Part shown: in pieces, positions 35,696 to 42,998 of the stretch
How the letters are laid out: every line of letters starts with the position of its first letter
How positions within the stretch are numbered: the first letter of the stretch is position 1
Source: Fervidobacterium gondwanense DSM 13020
GTDB taxonomy: Bacteria > Thermotogota > Thermotogae > Thermotogales > Fervidobacteriaceae
DNA length: 64,000 nucleotides
Assembly (NCBI RefSeq): GCF_900143265.1
Contig: NZ_FRDJ01000004.1
Coordinates: 124,001-188,000, forward strand
Reading direction: 5' to 3'
Translations under genes and position numbers: made by a program
The notes under the pieces: model-generated
The model's input: only the letters and a program-made list of their open reading frames with translations
What the model was told of the DNA's origin: nothing
Database searches by the model: none

Positions 35696-35771
35696 GCCCC
35701 CATCGTCTAGCGGTCTAGGACACTGGCCTTTCAAGCCAGCGGCACGGGTTCGAATCCCGTTGGGGGCGCCA
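35696..35771 (+). tRNA. tRNA-Glu (TTC)
   Basis: Full cloverleaf: acceptor GCCCCCA/TGGGGGC, discriminator G, encoded CCA. The anticodon loop CTTTCAA gives anticodon TTC. Confidence 0.97.
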
Positions 35772-35799
35772 GTTTTTAAAATTACAAAAAAGGCAGGTT

Positions 35800-35874
35800 G
35801 GGTGCGTAGCTCAGAGGGAGAGCGTCTGCCTTACGAGCAGAAGGTCGTAGGTTCAAGTCCTGCCGCACCCACCA
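35800..35874 (+). tRNA. tRNA-Val (TAC)
   Basis: Acceptor GGGTGCG/CGCACCC, discriminator A, encoded CCA. The anticodon loop CTTACGA gives TAC. Confidence 0.97.
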
Positions 35875-35918
35875 AGTGAGAAAAATGAATCGAAATGATG
35901 ATATAAAGATTTAAAGGT

Positions 35919-35994
35919 GGCCAGGTAGCTCAGATGGTAGAGCAGTGGACTGAAAATCCACGTGTCGACGGTTCGATTCCGTCCCTGGCCACCA
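35919..35994 (+). tRNA. tRNA-Phe (GAA)
   Basis: Acceptor GGCCAGG/CCTGGCC, discriminator A, encoded CCA. The anticodon loop CTGAAAA gives GAA. It is followed by a T-run that may end the transcript. Confidence 0.97.
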
Positions 35995-39350: not shown

Positions 39351-39427
39351 CGGGGCGTAGCGCAGATGGCGAGCGCGCCGGTCTTGGGAACCGGAGGTCG
39401 CTGGTTCAAGCCCAGTCGCCCCGACCA
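39351..39427 (+). tRNA. tRNA-Pro (TGG)
   Basis: Acceptor CGGGGCG/CGCCCCG, discriminator A, encoded CCA. The anticodon loop CTTGGGA gives TGG. Confidence 0.97.
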
Positions 39428-39432
39428 GCCAT

Positions 39433-39509
<77 letters not shown>

Positions 39510-39537
39510 ATTTATTTTTTTAAATTTTTTCAAGGCA

Positions 39538-39614
39538 GCGGCCGTAGCTCAACAGGATAGAGCATCGGACTTCTAATCCGAGGGTTGTGGGTTCGAGTCC
39601 CGCCGGCCGCGCCA
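39538..39614 (+). tRNA. tRNA-Arg (TCT)
   Basis: Acceptor GCGGCCG/CGGCCGC, discriminator G, encoded CCA. The anticodon loop CTTCTAA gives TCT. Confidence 0.97.
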
Positions 39615-39646
39615 GAGACAGCAAAAATTTAATAGAAACTATCTGT

Positions 39647-39723
39647 GGTGGCTATAGCTCAGTTGGCAGAGCGCCTGACTGTGGATCAGGTGGTCGAGGG
39701 TTCAAATCCCTCTAGCCACCCCA
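39647..39723 (+). tRNA. tRNA-His (GTG)
   Basis: Acceptor GTGGCTA/TAGCCAC with the extra 5' G (39647) opposite C73, the histidine identity element, and encoded CCA. The anticodon loop CTGTGGA gives GTG. Confidence 0.97.
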
Positions 39724-39759
39724 GTTTTTTATATAATACCATCAATTGTTCACAAGGAC

Positions 39760-39836
39760 GCGCTCGTAGCTCAACTGGATAGAGCGTCGGACTTCGGATC
39801 CGATGGTTGCGGGTTCAAGTCCTGCCGGGCGCGCCA
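39760..39836 (+). tRNA. tRNA-Arg (TCG)
   Basis: Acceptor GCGCTCG/CGGGCGC with one T-G pair, discriminator G, encoded CCA. The anticodon loop CTTCGGA gives TCG. A second weak -10-like TATAAT lies at 39732-39737 just upstream. Confidence 0.96.
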
Positions 39837-40228: not shown

Positions 40229-40254
40229 AAAAGCGGTCCGAATGGACCGCTTTT
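40229..40254 (+). terminator. Bidirectional terminator between spoVS and trpB2
   Basis: Stem GCGGTCC/GGACCGC with a GAAT loop, flanked by A-run and TTTT on both sides, so it can end both convergent transcripts. Confidence 0.93.
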
Positions 40255-40263
40255 CTTGTTTCA

Positions 40264-41520
40264 TTAGTTGTTTTGATACGCATTTAGATCAAAATGACCG
40301 TGTCCGGAAAGCGTGAATACAATTGTTTCTTTCCCGTTATCTTTTGCCTTTTTAACAACGTAGGCTATAGCATGTGCCGATTCAGGTGCCGGTATAATGC
40401 CTTCCAGTTTTGCAAATAGCTTCGCAGCTTCAAAGACTTCTTCTTGTGTTACGCTTGCCGCCTTTATTAAACGTTCGTGGTACAGCTTCGACACAATCGG
40501 CGCTGCACCATGGTATCTTAAACCTCCCGCATGTATTGCTGGAGGTACGAAATCTTTTCCGAGTGTATACATTTTCATCAACGGAGTTAATCCAGCAGTA
40601 TCTCCATAATCATATCTGAACTCTCCTTTTGTAAGCGACGGGCAGCTCTCCGGCTCAACAGCCACGAGGTCAATCTTTCTGCCTTGCAAGACATCTGGAA
40701 TAAATGGCAGAATCGTTCCACCAAAATTTGACCCACCACCATGACAGGCTACTACCATGTCTGGGATTACACCAATCTTTTTCAGCTGTTCTTTTATCTC
40801 CAAGCCGATAACGGTCTGATGCAGTAAAACGTGGTTCAGCACACTTCCCAGTGCGTATTTCGTACCTTCCTCTGACAGGACAACTTCTATCGCTTCTGAT
40901 ATTGCTATCCCAAGTGTTCCAGGGTGTTCATCAGAATAGTTCTTGCCAAAATTCGTTAACTTACTCGGACTGGGCACCACCGAACCGCCAAAAATGTTCA
41001 TCAAGGTTTTTCTAAAAGGCTTTTGGTTGTAACTAACTTTTACCATAAAGACCTTGACATCCAGACCGAATTTTGCCCCAGCGTACGATAGTGCACTACC
41101 CCATTGCCCTGCTCCTGTCTCGGTGACCAATGTTTTCGTACCGCTGATCTTATTGTAATATGCCTGAGCAAGTGCCGTATTGACTTTGTGACTCCCTGTC
41201 GGACTTGTTCCTTCGTACTTGTAGTATATCTTTGTCCTCGTCCCAAGATATTCCTCCAAGAACTTTGCCCTGATTAGCGGTGTTGGTCTGTAGACTGCGT
41301 ATTCTCTCAAGACTGGTTCAGGAATCTTTATATATCTTTCCGTGCTCATCTCCTGTTCGAGCAATTGTTCTGGGAATATCCTCAACAACTTCTCAGGACT
41401 CATCGGCTCTTGAGTTTCAGGATCAAGTGGCGGGTCGAGTTTGAAAGGAATGTCTGCAAGTACATTGTAATAACTTCTCGGAAGTTCCTCGGGTTTCAAT
41501 GCCACATACTCTCTAAACAT
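40264..41520 (-). CDS. trpB: TrpB2-type tryptophan synthase beta chain
   Basis: A 418-residue PLP enzyme. The PLP lysine is in EGTSPTGSHKVNTALAQAYY (about residue 112), the phosphate-binding loop is CHGGGSNFGGTILPF, and the end is FTLSGHGHFDL. The long N-terminus and GTSPTGSHKVN phrase identify the TrpB2 subfamily, which works without tight TrpA binding and is often used to salvage indole plus serine to tryptophan. It follows the binding-protein gene by 20 bases, and both are controlled by the upstream Trp attenuator. No trpA is nearby. Confidence 0.95.
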   Translation of the reverse strand: MFREYVALKPEELPRSYYNVLADIPFKLDPPLDPETQEPMSPEKLLRIFPEQLLEQEMSTERYIKIPEPVLREYAVYRPTPLIRAKFLEEYLGTRTKIYYKYEGTSPTGSHKVNTALAQAYYNKISGTKTLVTETGAGQWGSALSYAGAKFGLDVKVFMVKVSYNQKPFRKTLMNIFGGSVVPSPSKLTNFGKNYSDEHPGTLGIAISEAIEVVLSEEGTKYALGSVLNHVLLHQTVIGLEIKEQLKKIGVIPDMVVACHGGGSNFGGTILPFIPDVLQGRKIDLVAVEPESCPSLTKGEFRYDYGDTAGLTPLMKMYTLGKDFVPPAIHAGGLRYHGAAPIVSKLYHERLIKAASVTQEEVFEAAKLFAKLEGIIPAPESAHAIAYVVKKAKDNGKETIVFTLSGHGHFDLNAYQNN

Positions 41521-41540: not shown

Positions 41541-42662
41541 TTATTTCAAAACGTTTGTATTCAACTTCCCGCTATAAACAAAATCGCCGTTCTTTACTTT
41601 GAGTATAACTATCTCTTTTTGGGCATTTCCTTCCTTATCTATCGATATCGCTCCAGTCGCCCCCTGGAAATTCTTGATTGACCTAATAGCCGTAGCTATA
41701 AGCTCTGGTTTTGTTGTTTTCGCTCTCTCTATAGCACTTACAATTAGCATGTAAGCATCATATCCAAGCGCAGACAATGTAGAAGGCTTAACTCCGTACT
41801 TCTTGACAAATGCTTCGACAAACTTCTTAGATACCTGCGTCACCGGAGCGTCTGGGTGGTAGTGGTCTGAGAAGTATACTCCTTCTACCGCCTGTCCGCC
41901 TATCTTTATTAATTCAGGTGCGTTTGCTCCGTCTCCCGCAAGGATGTGTCCTTTGAATCCGAGTGACCTTGCTTGCTGGGCTACCAACGCTATTTCGTTG
42001 TAGTATCCTGTCACAACTATCGCTTCTGCTCCGAATGCCAATGCTTGTGACAACTGAGCGCTGAATTCGCTGTCTCCTGATTTGTACTGGAGTTGCTGTA
42101 CTTGTCCGCCGTATTTTTTGAACCTTTCGATAAAGTAGTTCGAAAGACCGACGCTGTAGTCTTGTTCGACGTCCGTGAGAACTGTTGCTTTCTTAATCTT
42201 CAGCGTCTTAACTGCGAATTCTGCAAGCGCTGTACCTTGGAGTGGGTCGATGAAACAAACCCTTGAAACAAACTTCTTGCCTTGCGTCACGAGCGGGTTC
42301 GTGGAGGCAGGACTGACCATGGGAACCTTCCTTTTTTCTGCTATCTCACCTGCAGCAAGAGAGTTTCCGCTCATAATTTCACCTATAACAGCGACAACAC
42401 CCTCTTTGTCGATAAGCCTTGCGATACCGTTAGCTGATTCTGTTTTCTCGCTTCTTGTGTCCATGAAGACAAGCTCGATCTTTTCACCGAGTGCTGTGCT
42501 CTTCTCTTCGTGCGCAAGCTCGATGCCTTTCTTCACCAAATCACCAGCCGCAGCCAACCCGCCTGTGAACGGAAGTAATACACCTATCTTCACAGTTGCA
42601 ACCGAAAAGACCGAAAAAACAACCGTCAATAACAAAGCAAAACCTCTTCTGAAAATACCCAT
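41541..42662 (-). CDS. Amino-acid-type periplasmic binding protein (LivJ family) under Trp control
   Basis: About 373 residues from the ATG at 42662 after AAGGAGGTAG. The signal peptide MGIFRRGFALLLTVVFSVFSVA is followed by TVKIGVLLPFTGGLAAAGDLVKKGIELA, the type-I fold of branched-chain amino acid receptors. GEIMSGNSLAAGEIAEKRKVPMVSPASTNP carries the alpha-amino and carboxyl-binding Ser/Thr residues. No Liv permease or ATPase genes are adjacent. Attenuation by Trp codons and co-transcription with trpB2 suggest the ligand is tryptophan, another aromatic amino acid or indole-related (inference). Confidence 0.88.
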   Translation of the reverse strand: MGIFRRGFALLLTVVFSVFSVATVKIGVLLPFTGGLAAAGDLVKKGIELAHEEKSTALGEKIELVFMDTRSEKTESANGIARLIDKEGVVAVIGEIMSGNSLAAGEIAEKRKVPMVSPASTNPLVTQGKKFVSRVCFIDPLQGTALAEFAVKTLKIKKATVLTDVEQDYSVGLSNYFIERFKKYGGQVQQLQYKSGDSEFSAQLSQALAFGAEAIVVTGYYNEIALVAQQARSLGFKGHILAGDGANAPELIKIGGQAVEGVYFSDHYHPDAPVTQVSKKFVEAFVKKYGVKPSTLSALGYDAYMLIVSAIERAKTTKPELIATAIRSIKNFQGATGAISIDKEGNAQKEIVILKVKNGDFVYSGKLNTNVLK

Positions 42663-42720: not shown

Positions 42721-42755
42721 AAAAAAGCCGGGTATGAATTTTACTCATACCCGGC
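42721..42755 (-). terminator. Leader terminator of the Trp attenuator
   Basis: An 11-bp perfect stem GCCGGGTATGA/TCATACCCGGC followed by TTTTTTATTTTT on the minus strand, 59 bases before the first start codon. Its 5' arm overlaps the antiterminator partner 42751-42765. Confidence 0.93.
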
Positions 42756-42850
42756 GATTGTCCACTTGTTTCCTATGCTATACCCTTGCTCACTGAATAT
42801 ATCGTCTTAAGAACACAAGCAAAGGGGTGGACAACCACCGGTTGTCCACC
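42751..42850 (-). promoter_or_regulatory. Trp attenuator: pause hairpin and antiterminator
   Basis: Arm 1 (42850-42840, GGTGGACAACC) pairs perfectly with arm 2 (42836-42826, GGTTGTCCACC) and includes the last Trp codons. The longer arm 2 (42841-42827, CCGGTGGTTGTCCAC) can instead pair over 15 bp, with two G-U pairs, with arm 3 (42765-42751, GTGGACAATCGCCGG). This consumes the first five bases of the terminator stem. Ribosome stalling at the Trp codons would free arm 2 for antitermination. Confidence 0.88.
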
Positions 42851-42932
42851 ACCACCAGAAGTTAACTGAACTATTTAATTCTTTTGATTTTGCAACCGTC
42901 AAATATGTCGATAAGCTACCACATAAATCCAC
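42807..42932 (-). CDS. Trp-rich leader peptide (41 codons)
   Basis: GTG start at 42932, seven bases after GGGGTG; stop TAA at 42807. Codons 26-29 (42857-42846) are four consecutive Trp codons (segment SVNFWWWWTTGGC). It lies between a strong promoter and the terminator, with pairing segments overlapping the Trp codons, the classical arrangement of an amino-acid-sensing attenuator. The peptide itself is probably without other function. The GTG is the best-supported start; a TTG ten codons later would still include the Trp codons. Confidence 0.85.
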   Translation of the reverse strand: MDLCGSLSTYLTVAKSKELNSSVNFWWWWTTGGCPPLCLCS

Positions 42933-42968
42933 AACGCCGCACCCCGTACACTGTTATAATTTTTTCCG

Positions 42969-42998
42969 ATTATACCACATCCTCTCTTTGAATGTCAA
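42969..42998 (-). promoter_or_regulatory. Promoter of the Trp leader, binding protein and trpB2
   Basis: TTGACA (42998-42993), 18-base spacer, TATAAT (42974-42969) with extended TGG. Start expected near 42962, about 30 bases before the leader GTG. Confidence 0.92.

Follow-up and report, generated by a model that had tools for sequence, protein, structure and literature searches.

We propose that the expression of trpB2 in the window (the whole 64,000-nucleotide stretch of Fervidobacterium gondwanense DNA analysed here), and of the receptor gene which stands before it, is tied to the supply of charged tRNA-Trp by a ribosome-mediated transcription attenuator, a reading to which we give a probability of roughly 0.9. 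The earlier note had described a promoter, a 41-codon leader with four consecutive Trp codons, a hairpin and a terminator in front of these genes, and each was found again on the minus strand exactly where it had been placed (Table 1). Translation of the leader ORF (42932–42807) gives the 41-residue peptide VDLCGSLSTYLTVAKSKELNSSVNFWWWWTTGGCPPLCLCS, ending at the stop codon at 42809–42807, and the GTG start with its GGGGTG site appears plausible from the sequence, if not strong. The Trp codons, TGGTGGTGGTGG at 42857–42846, are the sole copy of this sequence in the 64 kb, and none was seen in 100 shuffles. The host genome contains 36 TGGTGGTGG sites, and among the 20 of these which were fetched a terminator-like hairpin was found within 160 nt downstream only at the window leader; a search of the same genome (G000) with the RNA model returned one match. 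We also note a three-codon ORF, ATG TGG TAG (M-W-stop), at 42924–42916 on the minus strand, which shares sequence with the leader ORF but is read in a different frame.

Table 1. Elements of the putative attenuator and the genes that follow it in the window.
Feature	Coordinates	Strand	Basis
Promoter TTGACA-18-TATAAT, extended -10 (TG)	42969..42998	-	12/12 consensus positions
Candidate Shine-Dalgarno GGGGTG, 7 nt 5' of the GTG start	42940..42945	-	Putative, from sequence
Leader peptide ORF, 41 codons, GTG start, TAA stop	42807..42932	-	Translation; Trp run and TTGG.CPP part kept before trpB2 in relatives
Putative sensor, four consecutive Trp codons (WWWW)	42846..42857	-	Single occurrence in window; relatives mostly have 3–4 Trp codons
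Protector hairpin 1:2, 11 bp, predicted to sequester segment 2	42826..42850	-	In MFE and centroid folds; overlaps last Trp codons
Segment 2, antiterminator 5' arm	42827..42841	-	15 bp with 42751–42765
Segment 3, antiterminator 3' arm; 42751–42755 shared with base of terminator stem	42751..42765	-	
Intrinsic terminator, 13-bp stem 42755–42727, then six T 42726–42721	42721..42755	-	Between leader ORF and first gene
Receptor gene, LivJ-type periplasmic binding protein (Peripla_BP_6), no adjoining permease genes	41541..42662	-	Pfam E 2.4e-59
trpB2 (TIGR01415 / PRK12391 TrpB-like enzyme), 20 nt past receptor gene	40264..41520	-	NCBIfam E 1.3e-202 and 1.3e-197
Terminator-like hairpin between convergent spoVS and trpB2, probable unit end	40229..40254	.	

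In the mechanism that we envisage, a ribosome supplied with ample Trp-tRNA would cross the Trp run to the stop codon (42809–42807) and hairpin 1:2 (42850–42826) would re-close behind it, blocking segment 2, with the result that the terminator 3:4 (42755–42727) would form and transcription would end. When Trp-tRNA is scarce, the ribosome would stall at 42857–42846 and mask the 5' arm of hairpin 1:2; with 1:2 blocked, segment 2 (42841–42827) would pair with segment 3 (42765–42751) once the latter has been transcribed, and the 2:3 helix, by occupying the base of the terminator, would allow RNA polymerase to read on into the receptor gene and trpB2. Translation of the leader, ribosome stalling, termination and the response to Trp are steps that we infer, and the mechanism assumes that transcription and translation are coupled in the Thermotogota.

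The alternative 15-bp helix that the earlier note had drawn, which takes five bases from the terminator stem, proved to be exact save for two G-U pairs (CCGGTGGTTGTCCAC at 42841–42827 with GTGGACAATCGCCGG at 42765–42751), and its duplex energy was better than that of 200/200 dinucleotide shuffles of the segment past the Trp codons (z -4.5). For 63 leaders (61 from Thermotogota, plus the two non-Thermotogota loci L087 and L096) we computed the strongest duplex that the 45 nt past the Trp run can form with the terminator 5' arm and the 18 nt before it; in 61 of them the antiterminator ranked within the top 5% against dinucleotide shuffles (mean z -4.2). In all 63 it shares 3 nt or more with the terminator arm, and the overlap is 9–11 nt in several other families. 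The helix arms vary by family (CCGGTGGTTGTCC/GGACAATCGCCGG in the window, GCCCCGATTCG/CGAATCGGGGC in family f2 and GCCCCTTC/GAAGGGGC in family f9), and the mean energy of the segment 2/3 duplex is -29.8 kcal/mol for a leader's own segments compared with -16.7 kcal/mol when segments are mixed across families; a leader's own segment beats every foreign one in 42/60 cases. These dozens of natural leader variants offer a means of comparing helix competition.

Compensatory changes in the pairing arms had been suggested as a check, and these are present in a 14-sequence alignment of the family: six of the ten terminator stem pairs are changed on both sides, with a covariation score reached by no shuffle, and three of the 15 antiterminator pairs are likewise changed on both sides, with a covariation score matched in 1/500 shuffles. 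As the count of antiterminator pairs changed on both sides was reached by 73/500 shuffles, the covariation evidence for this helix is moderate on its own, and it could come partly from shared ancestry. Hairpin 1:2 (85.7% of cells paired in the 14 relatives) adds little covariation, and in the closest relatives of the window the segments are nearly the same. Lack of conservation of the Trp codons and arms had been named in advance as the result that would speak against the switch; both were found to be conserved in relatives, the two sides of a helix having changed sequence together.

Equilibrium folding at 37 C gave a mean terminator probability for the 63 leaders of 0.89 for the free RNA compared with 0.59 when the stretch that a stalled ribosome would cover (the 5' arm) was removed, and this removal lowered the probability by more than 0.2 in 38/63 leaders. 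For the window leader the drop was small (1.00 to 0.80), as the contest here concerns just 5 nt of the 13-bp stem and 10 bp of 2:3 can form alongside the terminator; the stalled-state equilibrium fold indeed keeps the full terminator beside this 10-bp remnant. Given this weak equilibrium switch, the switch in the window must be kinetic and rely on co-transcriptional folding. We read this as pointing to an outcome set by the order of transcription and not as a refutation, although our explanation is weakest at this point. The weak switching could also be taken to mean that the leader is a relic with a constitutive terminator, the receptor gene and trpB2 being transcribed from elsewhere or poorly, and a promoter-like match (9/12) at 41549–41522 does lie directly before trpB2. 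We regard this as very improbable: promoter-like matches occur at chance level (5 found vs 5.4 expected), the perfect consensus promoter, the four Trp codons and the 15-bp pairing are all intact, and nearly identical segments are retained in the closest relatives.

An attenuator of trpB2 is also what the wider distribution of the leader points to. We found trpB2 in 75 of the 103 Thermotogota genomes searched, with readable upstream DNA in 72 (the upstream DNA of the other three stops at or close to a contig end or was not fetched), and a Trp-rich leader followed by a terminator was present upstream of trpB2 in 64 of these 72. The Trp runs in relatives are mostly of 3–4 codons, with the stop 9 to 60 nt past the run, and the eight genomes in which trpB2 has no Trp leader belong to two genera (g12 and g13, the latter probably Thermotoga) of one family. 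As Trp codons, the terminator and the pairing of the antiterminator are kept phylum-wide, the logic of ribosome-mediated attenuation recognised in the earlier note is supported. The Trp codons also match the amino acid that the regulated enzyme would make. Since the Trp leader is kept with trpB2 throughout the phylum, the switch belongs to this gene, and the window is a local variant in which the receptor gene stands between leader and trpB2. The claim that the leader controls both a binding protein and trpB2 needs to be narrowed in this respect, as the leader precedes both genes here but the conserved target is trpB2 and not the receptor.

It is likely that these leaders descend from a phylum-wide ancestral Trp attenuator of the Thermotogota that controls the stand-alone TrpB2 and is unrelated in sequence to the known trp leaders. 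Separate origins of the leaders in several families, which would also be compatible with attenuation, might account for helix sequences that are unrelated between families, for the variable position of the stop past the Trp run (9 to 60 nt), and for the Petrotogaceae-type genomes where the leader is found on trpE instead; this seems unlikely, however, as the gene, the place of the leader and the order of its elements are identical in nearly every family and loss of the leader is limited to one family (eight genomes).

A number of individual loci were also noted. In the Fervidobacterium genome G002, which is counted among the 64, the RNA model found an intact leader (83 bits) that is separated from trpB2 by an ORF (L133:4280-5437) which by the look of its sequence is probably an IS110-like transposase, a case in which switch and gene have been naturally separated. 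Genomes of family f10 (Petrotogaceae-type, the family name being inferred) are without trpB2 and have a leader of the form WWWHL(G)-stop upstream of trpE (L196, L200, L201, L202, L205, L206, L208, L210 and L211), which places the Trp leader on the biosynthetic operon in genomes that lack trpB2. The leader ORF starts some 330–350 nt before trpE in most of these loci and some 600 nt before it in L208, and a terminator was present in both of the loci that were read (L200 and L210). Locus L187 (G034, family f8) has Trp leaders before trpE (NNGWWYRARC-stop) as well as before trpB2 (WWWYDRYFGRT-stop). Outside the phylum, L087, from a metagenome-assembled genome titled Spirochaetota, has a 71% identical trpB2 with a Thermosipho-like leader (WWLAGNCPP), which reflects either a misbinned contig or horizontal transfer, and L096, from an Alistipes (Bacteroidales) metagenome-assembled genome, has a YWWWRSL leader and terminator before trpB2 with a modest pairing (z -2.2).

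The TrpB2 protein encoded in the window scores 656.6 bits against TIGR01415, for which the curated cut-off is 518.85, and its nearest named relative is that of Fervidobacterium sp. UBA8200 (79% identical), followed by those of Thermosipho and Marinitoga. Neither TrpA, TrpE nor IGPS (trpC) was found above cut-off in the host genome, and TrpA above cut-off is missing in 18/20 genomes of the family. A lone TrpB2 is able only to condense indole or to react with serine. With trpE, trpC and trpA missing from the host, the most likely role of TrpB2 is to condense salvaged indole with serine to tryptophan, and this indole must be scavenged or come by another route. The control of trpB2 through Trp codons argues for such a synthase role, and a Trp switch on trpB2 in almost the whole phylum suggests that making tryptophan is the job of TrpB2 there. 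What TrpB2 does has been a matter of debate, with a second role as a serine deaminase proposed (PMC1854888); a Trp-specific attenuator before trpB2 in most of a phylum brings regulatory evidence for tryptophan synthesis into this debate and, if our reading is true, would establish that the lone TrpB2 makes Trp (by indole salvage) in cells whose trp pathway has been lost. We note that Rfam matches also place two clusters of tRNA genes near the operon on the plus strand, with five genes at 39351–39833 and three at 35696–35991.

The receptor gene has a more restricted history. It lies in the trpB2 transcription unit in only three Fervidobacterium genomes and in two orders, after trpB2 in G001 and G004 and between leader and trpB2 in the window, and it is a lineage-specific addition to the trpB2 switch, which illustrates that a binding-protein gene can join an existing switch by its position before or after the original target. 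We considered the receptor as a conserved target of the leader and rejected this, as no Trp-rich leader was found upstream of the other receptors of the family that were examined. A full Liv system with two receptors is present in the host genome (G000:C10), and the window receptor probably feeds the LivHMGF transporter encoded there, whose permease it would share. The window receptor was also rejected as a simple orthologue of its trpB2-linked counterparts in G001 and G004, as the tree groups it with the Liv receptor of its own genome (support 97/91). At the diagnostic sites, 25 match the Liv group and nine match the G001/G004 receptors, with most of these nine in the first third of the protein, and comparison with L002, L041 and L042 suggests a mosaic that may have arisen either by gene conversion or by convergence.

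Aspects of the receptor sequence bear on its ligand. In our alignment the window receptor keeps the GDG Asp that matches D226 of Atu2422 (3ip5). We take this residue to be the amino-group contact, and its retention makes an amino acid the probable ligand. An Asp-to-Asn change which might have indicated loss of this contact was discounted, as it lies three residues past the conserved GDG Asp with which Asp226 aligns. A Phe found in the Liv-operon receptors is replaced by Ala in each of the three trpB2-linked receptors; the position falls in the specificity loop, which contains LBP Trp18/LIVBP Tyr18, and the change would enlarge the pocket to suit a larger side chain. Uptake of Trp or another aromatic amino acid, rather than of an indole source or of branched-chain amino acids, would be compatible with the attenuator and we hold it tentatively, at a little under an even chance: the gene is under Trp control, the GDG Asp is kept and the Phe-to-Ala change would widen the pocket, but the aromatic ligand is read from sequence only, the protein otherwise groups with the Liv receptor of its own genome (97/91), and the closest solved structure, 3td9, is named as branched-chain amino acid binding. 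We found no literature on the ligand of TM1135/3td9, and tryptophan is our best guess from the sequence for the receptor described here.

Returning to the leader RNA, a ligand-binding riboswitch or a T-box in which the Trp codons are incidental would also contain a terminator and a competing helix, as these are present in any attenuator, and the window does give a weak match of 22.1 bits (E 0.66) to the covariance model of the published 'trpB' riboswitch candidate RF04312. This match is below the 59-bit gathering cut-off and covers the terminator and A/T-rich sequence, and no Rfam family (the T-box and RF04312 among them) reached its gathering score when the leaders of the window and of ten relatives were searched. 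From one family to the next the RNA is replaced by another sequence and nothing but the Trp run and the helix competition persists, which is the opposite of a conserved ligand pocket, and we find the riboswitch or T-box reading barely credible. Of the individual models, Trp_leader (RF00513) had no match in the window or the ten relatives and the T-box (RF00230) had none in the window, and RF04312, RF00558 and Phe_leader were rejected as relatives of the leader, with matches below cut-off and at chance level.

The attenuator before trpB2 probably has a counterpart in RF04312 itself. This 'trpB motif' of Firmicutes and Fusobacteria was described as a strong riboswitch candidate with attenuation left possible (PMC11109978). 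Like the window leader it combines a terminator with a competing helix upstream, and it precedes trpB or an amino-acid ABC transporter; it is a different RNA, however, with a peptide WQxWRR that has two spaced Trp codons. A short ORF ending in WQxW lies upstream of 24/30 RF04312 matches in one Bacillota family (that of G347; L244 and L248-L276) and is present at all 14 matches above cut-off, with WQxW followed as a rule by RR and the stop 15–23 nt before the motif. Tested against control positions in the same loci, the ORF was found at 24/29 RF04312 motifs compared with 45/2868 controls. From these sequences we suggest that the RF04312 motif is probably a ribosome-mediated Trp attenuator as well.

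Trp attenuators that work by ribosome stalling in a leader are textbook for enterobacteria, and the leader described here shares with Escherichia coli trpL (RF00513) a leader peptide with tandem Trp residues, mutually exclusive 1:2, 2:3 and 3:4 helices, and a terminator before the first gene. It differs from trpL in its target, which is a stand-alone trpB2 (with a binding protein in the window) instead of trpEDCBA, and in that just 5 nt of the terminator are contested in the window. The window stop codon also lies past segment 2, whereas in E. coli the ribosome covers segment 2, so protection here would come from 1:2 re-forming behind the ribosome. Classical trp attenuators have also been predicted in Actinobacteria (Corynebacterium and Streptomyces), with one in C. 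diphtheriae before a trpB2A operon (PMC1262725). These have UGG runs, a terminator and an antiterminator as does our leader, but their operon has trpA and is part of a full pathway, in contrast to our host, which is without trpA and belongs to another phylum. The amino-acid attenuator motifs that Rfam contained at the time were suggested to be gamma-proteobacterial in origin, with few transfers, by a motif survey that covered 11 Thermotogales (PMC3766115). Our search of the open literature found no report of trp attenuation in the Thermotogota; the earlier note's impression that such a leader is not commonly described in this lineage holds to this extent, but the switch itself is near-universal for trpB2 in the phylum. 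Trp attenuation, which in the open literature we found for Proteobacteria and Actinobacteria, would in this way be extended to a largely thermophilic phylum and, if our reading is true, ribosome-mediated attenuation would be an old device outside these two groups. The mechanism is known in kind; it is the target that is unusual, and the distribution that is unexpectedly wide.
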